Position numbers and translations under genes: made by a program
Virus record (IMG/VR): IMGVR_UViG_3300024348_000217
Location: 1 to 25,490 of that record
Reading direction: 5' to 3' (one strand)
Length of the DNA: 25,490 nucleotides
From: a virus
Shown here: positions 3,553 through 21,486 of the stretch, piece by piece
How positions within the stretch are numbered: position 1 is the first letter of the stretch
Layout: each line of letters starts with the position of its first letter
Notes under the pieces: generated by a model
What the model saw: only the letters and a program-made list of their open reading frames with translations
Database searches by the model: none
What the model was told of the DNA's origin: nothing

Positions 3553-3555
3553 TTG

Positions 3556-3629
3556 CGATCTGTACGGGACTTGAACCCGTGATCTCTACCGTGACAGGGT
3601 AGCGAATTAACCAACTATTCTAACAGACC
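3556..3629 (-). tRNA. tRNA-Asp (anticodon GTC)
   Basis: A full cloverleaf can be drawn. Acceptor GGTCTGT pairs with ACAGATC (one G-T). The D stem is GAAT/ATTC, the anticodon stem CTACC/GGTAG with loop CTGTCAC (anticodon GTC), and the T arm ACGGG-TTCAAGT-CCCGT. The discriminator base is G, as expected for tRNA-Asp. CCA is not encoded. It lies downstream of the DUF932 gene on the same strand, separated by a repeated hairpin element, so it is probably cut from that transcript. It may compensate codon use in the AT-rich phage genome. Confidence 0.93.
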
Positions 3630-15291: not shown

Positions 15292-15392
15292 TGCCCGTAA
15301 TTAAAGTTTCTGAAAATAAAAATAACCTACCTTCTGTTATCAAGATCTCTTACCAATCTGGAAAGTCACAAACTTTCAAGGTAAAGAAATAA
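15291..15392 (+). CDS. 33-residue basic protein
   Basis: MPVIKVSENKNNLPSVIKIS...YQSGKSQTFKVKK. TAATG at both ends and GGAGG at about 8 nt support translation. It is a basic two- or three-strand peptide, possibly a small structural connector. No family recognised. Confidence 0.6.
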   Translation: MPVIKVSENKNNLPSVIKISYQSGKSQTFKVKK

Positions 15393-16087
15393 TGGCATTA
15401 AGCAGAAGCACAGACTTTCCTGGTAGCAGAAAAACAAACTATGCAGATCAGGTTCAGCAATCGCAAGAAGTAGGATCTATAGATAGTAGCCTTTATATTC
15501 CAGTGCAAGGGCCACAAGGACCTGCAGGACCTAGGGGATTAGACGGCCAGACAGGTCCACAGGGACCCGCAGGGCCACAAGGCGAACGTGGACCAGCAGG
15601 CAAAGATGGAAAGTCTTTATTTGCCGATGGCTGGGCTAATTATGATAATCGAAACTTAATAAATTTTTCACTTGGAGCAACAAGAGGAGATGATGGGTGG
15701 GTTGACGTTTATGTCGATGCTCTTGGTAGAGGAACAAATGAAAAATATTTACCAAAAGATGGAATTAGTCTCTACAACCCAGAAACACGAAGAGTGAACC
15801 TAAAACATCTTGAAATTGGATCACAACTTAGAATTACATACAACTTTGATCTTTCCACATATGGAAATAATACTGAGGTTTGGGCTAGATCATATTTCCC
15901 AGATACTGGAAAGTCTATTACAAGTTTTGTAGCAAATCTTAAATACCAGTATGACTATGAACTGTCTACAACTCATCTTTTATATTTGGACGATACAGTA
16001 GATAAGTCAAGTGGGATAGTTCCACAATTGAGAGCAGACCTAGATTCCATGGCAGTCTTAAAATCAATCTATATTTCAACGTTCTAG
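15392..16087 (+). CDS. Collagen-like fibre protein
   Basis: 231 residues in three parts: an N-terminal segment (1-39), twelve Gly-X-Y triplets (40-75: [36 protein letters not shown]) and a C-terminal globular domain (76-231) that probably trimerises or binds receptor. Phage collagen repeats form trimeric stalks in fibres. Proline occurs only in the X place, never in Y. The two dioxygenases encoded further on would therefore not meet the usual Y-position substrate here. Confidence 0.85.
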
Positions 16088-17059: not shown

Positions 17060-17512
17060 ATGGCAAATAAAAACATAGACAACACAGATAATGGAACTGG
17101 TGTATTTAATACCAAGGTTCCTGGAATGGACGAGGCTGCCGATATTCAAGAGGCTCTTCGTATTTATCATTATGGATCAAAAACTCCTCCAGCAACAGAG
17201 GCAGATATTGTTAGGCCATCCCTTGTAGGTCATATTAAGGATATTAAGACAGATATTGCTGCAATTAACGCAAAAGGAATTGGAAGCACATATGCATCAA
17301 ATGAACCATCCTCAATTATTGATGGAATGATTTGGGTAGACTCAGATGTCACTGGAGGAACAGGAGTTCAGTTTGCAACTTCGCAGTATCAAACAACAGA
17401 GCCAACTACAGGTCTTGTCAATGGTTTGATTTGGATTAAAAAAGGAACTTCTCCACTTGAAATGTGGGTTTATGATTCTTCTACTACTTCATTCGTAAAG
17501 GTTGGTGCATAA
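17060..17512 (+). CDS. Fibre-associated structural protein
   Basis: 150 residues. PGMDEAADIQEALRIYHYGS is a helical adaptor segment. After it come two copies of a short beta motif typical of fibre shafts: NEPSSIIDGMIWVDSD and TEPTTGLVNGLIWIKK, then MWVYDSSTTSFVKVG. These 'P...G.iW.D...' units occur in many phage fibres. It is coupled to the next gene by TAATG. Confidence 0.65.
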   Translation: MANKNIDNTDNGTGVFNTKVPGMDEAADIQEALRIYHYGSKTPPATEADIVRPSLVGHIKDIKTDIAAINAKGIGSTYASNEPSSIIDGMIWVDSDVTGGTGVQFATSQYQTTEPTTGLVNGLIWIKKGTSPLEMWVYDSSTTSFVKVGA

Positions 17513-18162
17513 TGCCAAAGTCTATTGATTCACAATCTAAGGTAGCATATATTTATAGTTCAGCCACAGATAAATGGCATCCAATTGCTGGAGCAGTTAA
17601 TACTGGAGCAGCATATACTTGGTCAGCAGATCAAAATTTTTCTACAGCAGTAACTTTTGATTCTGTAGTAAAAGCAAAGGCTGGAGTTAATAATTTCTTA
17701 AATCCAGCAGCAAGAGATTTAATCTTTAATGGTATTTCATCAGAAAATAAAAAAGGCATTGTTTGTTTTGTTAGAAATGATGCAGCAGGCTTACCAATAA
17801 ATCAAATTCAGTATTTTGATGGGACCAACTGGAGATCTTATTCTGACTCGACACCTCTTCTTTCAAAAACAAATACAGCAACATATACAATTGTCTTAGA
17901 GGATGCTGGTCGTACTATTATTGCAAATTCTGATACTGCAAATACTATTGTTGTTCCAGCAAATAGCACAACGCCATTTGTTATTGGTCAAAGACTTGAT
18001 ATTATTCGTTACGGTGTTGGTATCACATCAATTTCTGGTGCTGACGGGGTAACTATTCAAAGCAAGAATTCTAATAAGAAGATTGCAGCAAGATACTCAG
18101 GAGCAACACTTATTAAATTAGAAGAGAACACCTGGATACTTGTTGGCGATTTGATAGCGTAA
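17512..18162 (+). CDS. Tail-fibre protein with C-terminal beta domain
   Basis: 216 residues. After an N-terminal segment (VAYIYSSATDKWHPIAGAVN) comes a typical fibre C-terminal domain: ATYTIVLEDAGRTIIANSDT, ANTIVVPANSTTPFVIGQRL, then YSGATLIKLEENTWILVGDL. This domain (often labelled tail-fibre or adhesin in phages) folds as a beta structure on trimeric fibres. Start shares a base with the previous stop. Confidence 0.7.
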   Translation: MPKSIDSQSKVAYIYSSATDKWHPIAGAVNTGAAYTWSADQNFSTAVTFDSVVKAKAGVNNFLNPAARDLIFNGISSENKKGIVCFVRNDAAGLPINQIQYFDGTNWRSYSDSTPLLSKTNTATYTIVLEDAGRTIIANSDTANTIVVPANSTTPFVIGQRLDIIRYGVGITSISGADGVTIQSKNSNKKIAARYSGATLIKLEENTWILVGDLIA

Positions 18163-18171
18163 GGTTTAAAA

Positions 18172-19701
18172 ATGCTGACCACACTAGGGCTATTTGGAAA
18201 AGGTATGGTATCAGTACCATCTTTAGTTGGTTTGTCAAAAACAGAAGCAGAGTTAACAATTACTGCAGCAGGGCTAGTAGTAGGAAGTTCTTCATCATCA
18301 GATACAAGTACGCAGTCAGATAACTCAAAAACATTCTCTCAGAGTCCAGTAAGTGGCACACAAGTAGACTATGAAACCTCTGTTAGTTTTTCATATTACA
18401 ACTATGTGGCTCCCGTAATTAATACAATATCTGTTATTGACACAATTGCAGTTATCAATGTGGGTACTGTTATTGATGTTATTAATACAAGCATTGCAAC
18501 AATCAACACTGGACCGCAGCCATGTTGTCAAGATGACGATGCGGGATATTGCGTAGATGTGGGTTCAGATGGATATGGAACCTGGATGCAGTATCAGTAT
18601 GATCCATGTACTGCAAGTTCTTGTCCACCAAGAAACATGGGCAGAACATTCTGTGGAGTTCCATCATTAACGTATTGTCCGTCACTTGGCTATAGTGTTG
18701 CTTCATCTGGATTCCCAGGTAACTGCCCAGGTGCAACAACTATTGCAACTATTAATACGATCAATACTGGCAATATCGGAAGTGCTTGCGTAGGTCCAGA
18801 TGGCTGTGATGGAACAATTGGTCTTAATGGACTATGCCAGTGTACAGATGTAATTAATACAATCAATACAATTAACACTATTAACACTATTAACACTATT
18901 AACACTATTAACACAATAAATGTATGTTTGTCAGATGAAATCCCATCAGGAACTGCATACCGTGCAGAGTGTTGTGGATATGCAGTTAGAGTAAAAGTAC
19001 TTAATTGTTCTGGACAGCAAACTGGAACAGCCTACTACTGTATTGATTCATGTCCAACGATTAACACTATTAATACAATTGATACTATTAATACAATTAA
19101 CACTATCAATACAATTAATACTATCAATACAATTGACACCATTAACACAATCAATACAATTGCAACAATCAACACAATTAATACAATTAACACAATCAAT
19201 ACAATTGCAACAGGTGGGGGATATGGATGTTTGGCTTATGGAACTCCTATTCTTCTTTCAGATAGAACATATAAGAATATTGAAGATCTAGTAATCGGAG
19301 ATGAACTTCTTTCTCTTAATGTGTCATCTTTGCCAGATGAAGAATACCCAACAATTCTCGATTCATGGACTTCAAATAATATAGATGATTCAGTATTTAC
19401 TACTACAACTGTCACAAATATTCAAAAACTAACAAACCCAGGATATTATGTTCTTAATAACAAGTTAAATGTTACATATGAGCATATTATGTTTATAAAA
19501 AGAGATGACGTTTGGAGATTTGCATCTATGGAAAATGTAGTTGTTGGAGATTACATTGTCGATAGCGAGGGGGATACTGTAAGAGTAGACTCTATTGACT
19601 ATGTCAGTGATTTGATTAATGTTGTTTCAATTGATACAGAAGTTAAGGATATGTATTTTGCATCAGACATCCTTGTACACAACTTCTACATGGCTAAGTA
19701 A
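18172..19701 (+). CDS. Mosaic fibre: PASTA, INT repeats, Cys-rich modules, C-terminal Hint domain
   Basis: 509 residues. Residues 14-77 resemble a PASTA domain (VPSLVGLSKTEAELTITAAG). Then Ile-Asn-Thr triplet repeats (7 at 228-248, 17 at 297-349, others degenerate) alternate with three cysteine-rich modules. Residues 353-504 are an intein-like Hint domain: Cys353 after GGGYG, T435-Y-E-H438 (block B) and H503-N504 at the end. Only FYMAK follows, and +1 is Phe, not Cys/Ser/Thr, so it looks like a bacterial intein-like (BIL) domain that cleaves or transfers rather than splices. It may release or crosslink the repeat fibre. Confidence 0.75.
   Translation: MLTTLGLFGKGMVSVPSLVGLSKTEAELTITAAGLVVGSSSSSDTSTQSDNSKTFSQSPVSGTQVDYETSVSFSYYNYVAPVINTISVIDTIAVINVGTVIDVINTSIATINTGPQPCCQDDDAGYCVDVGSDGYGTWMQYQYDPCTASSCPPRNMGRTFCGVPSLTYCPSLGYSVASSGFPGNCPGATTIATINTINTGNIGSACVGPDGCDGTIGLNGLCQCTDVINTINTINTINTINTINTINTINVCLSDEIPSGTAYRAECCGYAVRVKVLNCSGQQTGTAYYCIDSCPTINTINTIDTINTINTINTINTINTIDTINTINTIATINTINTINTINTIATGGGYGCLAYGTPILLSDRTYKNIEDLVIGDELLSLNVSSLPDEEYPTILDSWTSNNIDDSVFTTTTVTNIQKLTNPGYYVLNNKLNVTYEHIMFIKRDDVWRFASMENVVVGDYIVDSEGDTVRVDSIDYVSDLINVVSIDTEVKDMYFASDILVHNFYMAK
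18853..18915 (+). repeat. INT minisatellite array 1 (7 x 9 bp)
   Basis: Seven tandem ATT/ATC-AAY-ACW units inside the mosaic fibre gene, all encoding Ile-Asn-Thr. Bases vary mainly at third codon positions, so the peptide rather than the DNA seems to be under selection. Confidence 0.9.
19060..19212 (+). repeat. INT minisatellite array 2 (17 x 9 bp)
   Basis: Seventeen 9-bp units encoding I-N-T, with I-D-T (two) and I-A-T (two) variants. The array ends five residues before the Hint cysteine. Copy number probably varies by slippage or recombination. Confidence 0.9.
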
Positions 19702-20288
19702 TGAATAAAGTTGAATATTTCCCAGGTGTTGTAGGTTACTCTGGATTAATGCCAGAATCAATCGAGTATGTCTTAAAAATATCTGCGATTGCTGAAACTG
19801 GAAAACTTTCTTGGATGCCAATGACAACTGGAAGAGGCAATGGGCATGTTGCTTCTGTAATGCCAGAACTAAGAAGAGGTTCTGTAATTGGTTTAAATGG
19901 GGTAGGTAAAGACGTAGAGATTGCAGATGCGCTATCTACACTTAGATCTGCAGCAGACAATGCAATAGGCCTATGCTTAAGAGATTATGAAAAAAGTTAT
20001 GGCTATTTTGATTTAGAGGGAGAAGGCTGGGCTCTTTTAAAGTACGAAGTCGGTGATTTTTTCAAGGTACACACAGATGCCTCCAGGGCTTATCCAAGAC
20101 AGGTGTCTACTGTATACTATATTAACGATGACTATACTGGGGGAGAGATATTTTTCCCATATATCAATTTGGAAGTAAAGCCAAAGAAGGATGAGTTCTT
20201 AGTTTTTCCATCTACAAATCTTTTTTCTCATTATGCAAAAGAGGTTGTTTCTGGAACAAAGTATTCAATGCCAAATTGGTTTAGTTAG
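19701..20288 (+). CDS. 2-oxoglutarate/Fe(II) dioxygenase (prolyl-4-hydroxylase-like) 1
   Basis: 195 residues. FFKVHTDAS supplies H124 and D126, SHYAKEV supplies H177, and GTKYSM supplies K187, ten residues after the second His: the Fe triad and 2-oxoglutarate anchor of the 2OG-FeII_Oxy_3/P4H group. VSTVYYINDDYTGGEIFFPY is the usual core. The ATG shares a base with the stop of the INT/Hint gene, so the two are made together. Likely hydroxylates a residue in a fibre protein; the substrate is unknown. Confidence 0.85.
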   Translation: MNKVEYFPGVVGYSGLMPESIEYVLKISAIAETGKLSWMPMTTGRGNGHVASVMPELRRGSVIGLNGVGKDVEIADALSTLRSAADNAIGLCLRDYEKSYGYFDLEGEGWALLKYEVGDFFKVHTDASRAYPRQVSTVYYINDDYTGGEIFFPYINLEVKPKKDEFLVFPSTNLFSHYAKEVVSGTKYSMPNWFS

Positions 20289-20296
20289 GAGATATT

Positions 20297-20890
20297 ATGG
20301 AAAAGAAGGTGCTTGGGGACAAGATTGTTGTTTACTCTAACATATCTGAGGATCCAATGTCAATTATTAGACAAGCAGAAAGCATAACTGATAAATATCC
20401 TACGACTGGCTTTAAAAGAGCAACTATTAACAATCATCAATACGACACTAACCTTCGATCTTGCACTGTTTTTAGTCTATTCCCAGATAAATCAGATAGG
20501 TCTATTGTTGGAATAGAATCACGGGCAGAAAAGGTAAAACTTAATCAAAGAATAGTTAGCCAAACATCCCTTGCACTTATTGACTTTATAAGAGAGTATG
20601 GGTTTACAATTACTGAAAGAGAGCATTGGGAACTTTTGTCCTATGAAGAAACACAAAAGTTAACGTGGCATGCAGATAATGGAGCCCCACATCCATGCTT
20701 AGTATCAATGGTTTATTACCTAAACGATGATTATGAAGGCGGAGAGGTAGAGTTTAAAGATCATATTGGCACACCTTTTAAACCGTCTGCAGGAGATCTT
20801 TTGATCTTCCCCTCATCGGTAGATTATGTTCATAGAGTTCTTCCAATAACAAGTGGAAGAAAGTATGCTGCTATTTCCTTTTGTAAGTAA
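20297..20890 (+). CDS. 2-oxoglutarate/Fe(II) dioxygenase (prolyl-4-hydroxylase-like) 2
   Basis: 197 residues. LTWHADNGAPHP gives H125 and D127, DYVHRV gives H179, and SGRKYAA gives K189 at +10. VSMVYYLNDDYEGGEVEFKD is close to the first copy, but the N-terminal 100 residues differ, so the two probably have different substrates. AGGAG at 5-6 nt precedes the ATG, 8 nt after the first dioxygenase. The complete triads suggest both are active. Confidence 0.85.
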   Translation: MEKKVLGDKIVVYSNISEDPMSIIRQAESITDKYPTTGFKRATINNHQYDTNLRSCTVFSLFPDKSDRSIVGIESRAEKVKLNQRIVSQTSLALIDFIREYGFTITEREHWELLSYEETQKLTWHADNGAPHPCLVSMVYYLNDDYEGGEVEFKDHIGTPFKPSAGDLLIFPSSVDYVHRVLPITSGRKYAAISFCK

Positions 20891-20892
20891 GA

Positions 20893-21447
20893 CTACTTAG
20901 GGAACTTAGCCATCCATTCTTTTGTCTTAGGTGTAATACCCTTCCAAGATGACCAGTTTTCTCCGCCATTAGACATATAGTATGCAATCTCTGCATTTTT
21001 GACGGGATTGAATAATTCAGAATTAGATTCAAGATCAAACTTAGTTCTACGGTCAGGACCAAGAGAGTCAATCATATTGATCTGGAACATTCCATATGAA
21101 GAGTCCCCTGTCTTATGATTGCCATTAAATGCTAGTGGACGTCCATTGGACTCCTTCTTAGCAATAGCCCAAGCAACTACCAAATCCTTGCCAGTAAAAC
21201 CAACAAGGCTAAGAAGTTCCTTAAGTTCTAAATCTGTTAGAGATGTCTTATTCTCAAAACTCTCTAGTCTTTTTGCCTTAGAAACCAAAAAAACCTCTTT
21301 CGAGGCGTTTTGCGATGACTGAGCCTGTTCCAGGCTTAGATTATTTTTTATGTTATTAGCATTAGCAGAGTTTATAGGTGTTCCCACCAACAGACTAATG
21401 CTGAGTATGCTGATGATTTCCTTGTTTCTTTCGATCCATTTAATCAT
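20893..21447 (-). CDS. Secreted lysozyme / lytic transglycosylase-like protein
   Basis: 184 residues from the ATG at 21447, with AAGGAGG at 5-6 nt; a longer frame lacks a good RBS. Residues 1-31 form a signal peptide (basic start, hydrophobic ISILSISLLVGTP, possible cut after SANA). The catalytic domain has AWAIAKKESNGRP (Glu99 as acid), SSYGMFQIN and a C-terminal NPVKNAEIAYYM with ENWSSW, the SLT/goose-lysozyme layout. It would cut peptidoglycan outside the membrane. It is transcribed against the surrounding tail genes from its own promoter. Confidence 0.8.
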   Translation of the reverse strand: MIKWIERNKEIISILSISLLVGTPINSANANNIKNNLSLEQAQSSQNASKEVFLVSKAKRLESFENKTSLTDLELKELLSLVGFTGKDLVVAWAIAKKESNGRPLAFNGNHKTGDSSYGMFQINMIDSLGPDRRTKFDLESNSELFNPVKNAEIAYYMSNGGENWSSWKGITPKTKEWMAKFPK

Positions 21448-21470
21448 AGTTTCCTCCTTAGAAAACAATA

Positions 21471-21486
21471 ACACCTTAGTAGGTGT
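21471..21486. promoter_or_regulatory. Inverted repeat in the lysozyme 5' leader
   Basis: ACACC and GGTGT flank TTAGTA, between the promoter and the Shine-Dalgarno of the lysozyme-like gene. It could be an operator or an mRNA hairpin delaying expression. Confidence 0.4.

Follow-up and report, generated by a model that had tools for sequence, protein, structure and literature searches.

A phage fibre with Ile-Asn-Thr linkers that ends in an intein-like Hint domain: a putatively self-processing virion appendage beside candidate modifying enzymes

Why does a phage structural gene end in an intein-like domain, and what do the enzyme genes directly behind it contribute? This question is raised by a fibre gene in the IMG/VR virus record IMGVR_UViG_3300024348_000217, of which positions 1 to 25,490 were analysed as one stretch (referred to as the window). 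The gene is an uninterrupted open reading frame, in which a PASTA domain is followed by arrays of Ile-Asn-Thr (INT) triplets and cysteine-rich modules, a glycine-rich linker, a Hint domain and five terminal residues (Table 1). The explanation that appears fairly probable from sequence comparison is that of a virion fibre or appendage, whose Hint domain resembles type A bacterial intein-like (BIL) domains and would process itself, and whose linkers would be modified by a neighbouring dioxygenase.

Table 1. Features of the fibre locus and GT60 genes beside related fibres. Positions refer to the window unless preceded by a locus handle (L and a number).
Feature	Position	Strand	Remarks
150-aa structural gene	17060..17512	+	relative of its first 40 aa in the L038 Hint fibre, 68% identity over 40 aa
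216-aa structural gene	17512..18162	+	relative of its C-terminal domain in the L038 Hint fibre, 37% identity over 95 aa
Fibre gene, 509 aa	18172..19701	+	PASTA, INT linkers with Cys modules, G-rich linker, Hint, FYMAK
PASTA domain, residues 13-73	18208..18390	+	Pfam PF03793, E 2.5e-7, 31 bits against a cut-off of 23.2
Degenerate INT/IDT array, residues 82-113	18415..18510	+	
Cys-rich module 1, 8 Cys, residues 114-189	18511..18738	+	also in L007-L010
Short IAT/INT array, residues 190-199	18739..18768	+	
Cys-rich module 2, 4 Cys, residues 200-226	18769..18849	+	
INT array, residues 227-250	18850..18921	+	
Cys-rich module 3, 6 Cys, residues 251-294	18922..19053	+	kept in every close relative
Main INT array, residues 295-347	19054..19212	+	17 unbroken units; abuts linker and Hint
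GGGYG linker	19213..19227	+	Gly at -1 of Hint; most relatives G-rich here
Hint domain (BIL-like), Cys353 to Asn504	19228..19683	+	TYEH 19474-19485, VHN 19675-19683
C-terminal tail FYMAK	19684..19698	+	its lysine retained by nearly all relatives
2OG-Fe(II) dioxygenase 1	19701..20288	+	Pfam PF13640, E 2e-13; start overlaps the fibre stop (TAATG)
2OG-Fe(II) dioxygenase 2	20297..20890	+	predicted prolyl-hydroxylase fold; relatives of the pair come after INT Hint fibres
GT60 genes	L020:5915-6868, L194:2429-3445, L207:3493-4518, L082:1989-2921, L038:3903-4946		PF11397, E 1e-18 to 1e-36 where scanned

The layout and key residues had been read exactly in the first-pass annotation, from the PASTA domain, the INT arrays and the modules of 8, 4 and 6 cysteines to Cys353, T435-x-x-H438, H503-N504 and the tail FYMAK. 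The PASTA domain scores above the cut-off of its Pfam family, and the even cysteine counts of the modules are compatible with disulfide bonding. The arrays are encoded by all common synonymous codons in mixture (ATT/ATC, AAT/AAC, ACA/ACT/ACC). Hence, the repeat is under selection and kept as protein, and its interpretation as a DNA microsatellite is rejected. The second triplet position is occupied by Asp or Ala in 22% of cases, so that Asn is not strictly required there.

The genes around the fibre gene match tail and virion PHROGs; among them, the 216-aa gene matches virion/minor tail PHROGs. Locus L038 encodes a single protein that combines relatives of the start of the 150-aa product and of the end of the 216-aa product with linkers and a Hint domain. 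Because this protein fuses their relatives, the two genes and the fibre gene are tied to one structure. A collagen-like protein with GPQ/GPA repeats is encoded further upstream (15392-16087) and is found in contigs of the clade with any linker type. A lysozyme-like SLT_3/transglycosylase gene (20893-21474, minus strand) takes the same place behind the cassette in all close relatives, and the window also carries a tRNA-Asp (GTC) at 3555-3629 on the minus strand. The phage of the window has no nucleotide-level match to any cultured phage. Its hosts are probably actinobacteria, since WhiB passes the cut-off in 6 of the 13 related contigs, among them L017, a sibling of 112 kb; this assignment rests on the sibling contigs rather than on the window. 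Among 14 control genomes, WhiB occurs in one (Corynebacterium). Searches of the related contigs with Terminase_6N and phrog_2 gave no match, which is uninformative in such fragments.

Taken alone, the window protein matches no Pfam Hint model above its cut-off. A profile built from 55 phage Hint domains finds the BUBL BIL2 structure 6tmm first among PDB entries (5.5e-16) and the Clostridium thermocellum BIL domain 2lwy second (5.3e-14), followed by inteins. An AlphaFold2 model of the domain (pLDDT 90.2) adopts the Hint fold, and the same BIL structures rank first by fold: Foldseek aligns BIL2 with an E value of 5e-10, with TM scores of 0.75-0.80 for the best matches, and also retrieves inteins and hedgehog (1at0, 1.3e-5). 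Since the profile matches solved BIL domains and the fold search agrees, the assignment is not a chance one. The domain begins with the N-terminal cysteine (C353) and contains the block B motif TxxH (T435, H438) of the Hint/intein superfamily. It ends in H503-N504, after which Phe takes the place of Cys, Ser or Thr at +1. Type A BIL domains are defined by this C-terminal HN and the lack of Cys/Ser/Thr at +1 (PMC4031507, PMC7664689), and the fibre Hint is placed with them on the basis of sequence and model. The claim that an intein-like Hint domain ends a structural fibre is thus borne out by a complete set of catalytic residues and by BIL matches in both profile and fold.

Other classes do not fit the domain. 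A class 1 intein would need a +1 Cys, Ser or Thr, which the tail FYMAK does not offer, and would interrupt a conserved host protein, which the fibre is not. A selfish intein is rejected since the 152-residue domain has neither the +1 nucleophile nor an endonuclease domain. The five residues between Hint and stop leave no room for the sterol-recognition region of a hedgehog-type Hog protein. Neither do they hold the toxin domain of a polymorphic toxin PT-HINT, and here dioxygenase genes come next.

Type A BIL domains mainly cleave, and some splice via attack by the freed amine of the C-flank (PMC4031507, PMC7664689). For this reason the first-pass annotation goes too far in not expecting splicing, given that domains with HN and without a +1 nucleophile can splice. 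Cleavage through thioester chemistry is the activity expected of the family. In the mechanism envisaged, Cys353 would take over the bond of Gly352 as a thioester and Asn504 would cyclise. Herein, the fibre would be cut at the Gly352-Cys353 bond and after Asn504, and the Hint domain would depart. The terminal Gly of the fibre would either end free or be passed to an amine, for which the lysine of the tail is the best candidate.

It is conceivable that the domain has ceased to cut and acts as a cap, either structural or for receptor binding, as a few relatives have lost HN or Cys1. Across the 55 divergent phage Hints, however, with identities as low as about 25-30%, Cys1, TxxH and HN never change while other positions vary. 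In a dead structural cap their loss would be expected, which makes this reading highly improbable.

The Hint ending is not confined to the window. Close homologues of the fibre are found on seven viral contigs, and a scan for DNA encoding (INT)4 returned 32 stretches, of which matches in short or apparently non-coding frames were excluded (L031, L034, L036, L046, L052-L054, L058). The long coding matches are fibre-like proteins with N-terminal parts unrelated to one another, in which an INT, IDT or VNT array leads through a Gly-rich linker to a C-terminal Hint. Wider Hint scans gave 352 matches from one query, and 77 distinct Hint ends entered the analysis. The linkers ahead of the Gly stretch are exchanged among the Hint fibres and include INT, VNT, QNT, PT, VSP, VGVSP, FGFTP, YVPP and PYSNPP; in L008-L010 and L020-L022, FSVFSFTP repeats and PTPT form the linker where the INT array otherwise sits. 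Structural proteins with a terminal Hint are common in IMG/VR and bear collagen, FN3-like, PASTA or S74 chaperone domains.

Variations on this arrangement were also observed. In a related Hint family (L263-L326, about 40 distinct members), proteins of about 580 residues continue after the Hint with HN-KGTTTQP, with Lys at +1, and a lectin-like Laminin_G_3 domain of about 247 residues. At least two tandem Hints are present in structural proteins of L113, L117, L128, L130, L133, L134 and L135, and at several of these loci two or three 2OG dioxygenase genes lie downstream.

Among cultured phages, the ending occurs in NCTB, in Erwinia and Dickeya jumbo phages and in Alcaligenes phage Afa-NA1. In NCTB (L011:7960-15219), three genes lying near each other in the tail region carry annotated intein domains; one of them encodes a stand-alone Hint-like protein of 153 residues ending in HN-KVD. 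The public annotation of NCTB already reads 'putative phage tail protein, contains intein domain'. A fibre of this kind had been thought undescribed; with NCTB and PHROG 38766 on record this no longer stands for its existence, but it does for function and linkage. The open-access literature yielded no paper on the function of Hint-ended phage structural proteins and none on the modification of tail fibres by dioxygenases.

The residues behind HN are short and hypervariable in sequence, and their lysine is retained. A Lys is present in 66 of 68 short tails, compared with 33 expected from length-matched C termini of the same loci and a maximum of 45 in 5000 draws; the two tails without it belong to L112 and L117. 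Clustering at 40% identity yields 22 groups, of which 21 keep the residue (binomial p 5e-6 at 0.5). The idea was drawn from the first set and then checked on newly scanned Hints, where all 27 tails contain Lys, including all nine with less than 50% identity to the first set (control 3.5). Arg is depleted (5 observed, 23 expected). Three Hints end in HN-K-stop, and in 45 Hints with a long C-flank, K stands at +1 in nearly all among the matches listed. As Arg is avoided while Lys is kept, the requirement seems to be for an amine and not for charge as such, and the retention favours, at the level of sequence, a role for the amine.

What this amine would do is a matter of competing readings. The ε-amine of the tail Lys, in cis or on a neighbouring chain, could attack the Hint thioester, so that the fibre Gly becomes isopeptide-linked before Asn cyclisation releases the Hint; the domain would then be a cross-linking or capping device and not a mere protease. 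The Lys statistics within and outside the first set, the avoidance of Arg and the HN-K endings speak for such a ligation, and there is precedent for a step in which an amine attacks a BIL thioester (PMC4031507). However, the Lys lies anywhere between +1 and +9 and is missing from two tails, Asp/Glu are likewise commoner than in the control (47 against 31), and an ordinary electrostatic or folding role might also account for a basic residue. We know of no Hint that accepts a Lys side chain, and none was found in the open-access literature; the reading is considered unlikely. Alternatively, the domain may be a self-removing module for C-terminal folding or registration in the manner of the S74 chaperones, with no acceptor chemistry involved. 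Its position, nearly always at the extreme C terminus of fibre-like proteins and behind a long flexible linker, suits this role, as does L094, where the Hint stands immediately ahead of an S74 chaperone. A flexible Gly-rich linker would pass on little register, though, Hint domains are to our knowledge monomeric, and the Lys is left unexplained, which renders this role rather unlikely.

Returning to the favoured reading of a self-processing fibre, its second half concerns the genes downstream. A model of the dioxygenase (pLDDT 90.5) has PHD2 and prolyl-4-hydroxylases as its fold matches, and alignment identifies in dioxygenase 2 the metal and 2OG site of the prolyl-4-hydroxylase (P4H) type (H125xD127, H179, K189). 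A 2OG-Fe(II) dioxygenase is the next gene, within 150 bp, after all 14 INT-array Hint fibres. Where at least 900 bp of downstream sequence are available, it follows 13 of 13 INT fibres, compared with 7 among the 51 remaining Hints with short tails (Fisher p 6e-9). Co-inheritance may account for this link, since INT arrays were gained or lost only four times along the Hint tree, and the independent pairs (three in the same direction, none opposite, one without difference) give a sign test p of 0.25. The link is strengthened by two further observations. Within the clade of the window, loci with PT/FSVF linkers lack the dioxygenase pair although the collagen-like gene is still there. In addition, the later-found L190 encodes a protein with the same order of PASTA domain, Cys modules and Hint but with Gln-Asn-Thr in place of Ile-Asn-Thr arrays, and a dioxygenase gene lies 4 bp behind it; among 27 new Hints, no other has an x-Asn-Thr array or a dioxygenase. 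What stays constant across the x-N-T arrays is hence Asn (or Asp/Ala) and Thr, not Ile. Against the favoured reading, the dioxygenase beside the fibre in L081 looks damaged.

The adjacent dioxygenase would hydroxylate the fibre, most likely in the Asn/Thr triplet linkers, a substrate suggested by gene linkage, although another protein may be the target. The dioxygenases could instead be unrelated to the fibre, travelling by linkage or acting on the upstream collagen-like protein, and this has some plausibility, though we judge it the less likely course: dioxygenases are common in aquatic phages and many occur in cyanophages, all contigs of the clade carry a separate one at a distance, and the tree test is not significant. 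Set against it are the overlap of the fibre and dioxygenase 1 genes and the out-of-sample QNT case. The collagen-like protein as substrate is disfavoured, given that the gene for it occurs in contigs of both the INT and the PT type and the pair follows INT arrays alone.

A second type of enzyme gene accompanies another linker. A GT60 GlcNAc-transferase (PF11397) lies directly 3' of VSP/VGVSP-rich fibres in L020, L194 and L207. In L038 and L082, where the arrays are of the INT type and dioxygenases are present, such a gene occurs as well, at a distance of a few hundred bases. In the most far-reaching version, a 'finishing cassette', the Hint would join the fibre Gly to the tail-Lys ε-amine of its own or a partner chain by an isopeptide bond, and an enzyme matched to the linker (2OG dioxygenase for x-Asn-Thr, GT60 for Ser-Pro-rich) would modify the stalk; this combination as a whole is very unlikely. 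The adjacent dioxygenases, the Lys tail, the recurrence of the module and the pairing of Ser-Pro linkers with GT60 go beyond the first-pass annotation.

If true, Hint-ended fibres would represent a widespread use of Hint chemistry beyond selfish inteins, hedgehog proteins and toxins. The retained Lys points to a specific, new acceptor chemistry that is open to direct test, and the pairing of linker type with a hydroxylase or glycosyltransferase predicts a dedicated post-translational modification of virion fibres. Short Lys-tailed Hints may also serve as protein-ligation tools.

Among known systems, the type A BIL domain of C. thermocellum (2lwy) shares with the phage domain the Hint fold, N-terminal Cys, TxxH, terminal HN and absence of +1 Cys/Ser/Thr; the phage Hint differs by ending fibres, by its short Lys tail, by the low-complexity linkers and by the genes for modifying enzymes alongside. 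The nearest solved structure by profile and fold, Tetrahymena BUBL BIL2 (6tmm, 6y75), belongs to a ciliate locus (BUBL1) and not to a phage fibre. The tail proteins of PHROG 38766/NCTB and of the Erwinia and Dickeya jumbo phages are likewise structural, with a C-terminal Hint and a Lys tail, whereas they have a collagen-type stalk, no INT array and no annotated adjoining dioxygenase. The PT-HINT (PF07591) of polymorphic toxins is an autopeptidase Hint near the C terminus of filamentous proteins (PMC3482391). There a toxin domain comes after the Hint, whereas in the phage fibre a few residues are followed by the stop. Peptidase_S74 of phage fibres is an intramolecular, self-removing chaperone at the C terminus. 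It is unrelated to the fibre Hint in fold and chemistry, and both co-occur in L094 (686-4819), where a long collagen protein carries them. In the Skp1 pathway, hydroxylation by a P4H precedes glycosylation by GT60. A similar combination is encoded in L082 and L038, where genes for a P4H-like oxygenase and a PF11397 protein lie close together; in these loci, however, the enzyme genes adjoin phage fibres.
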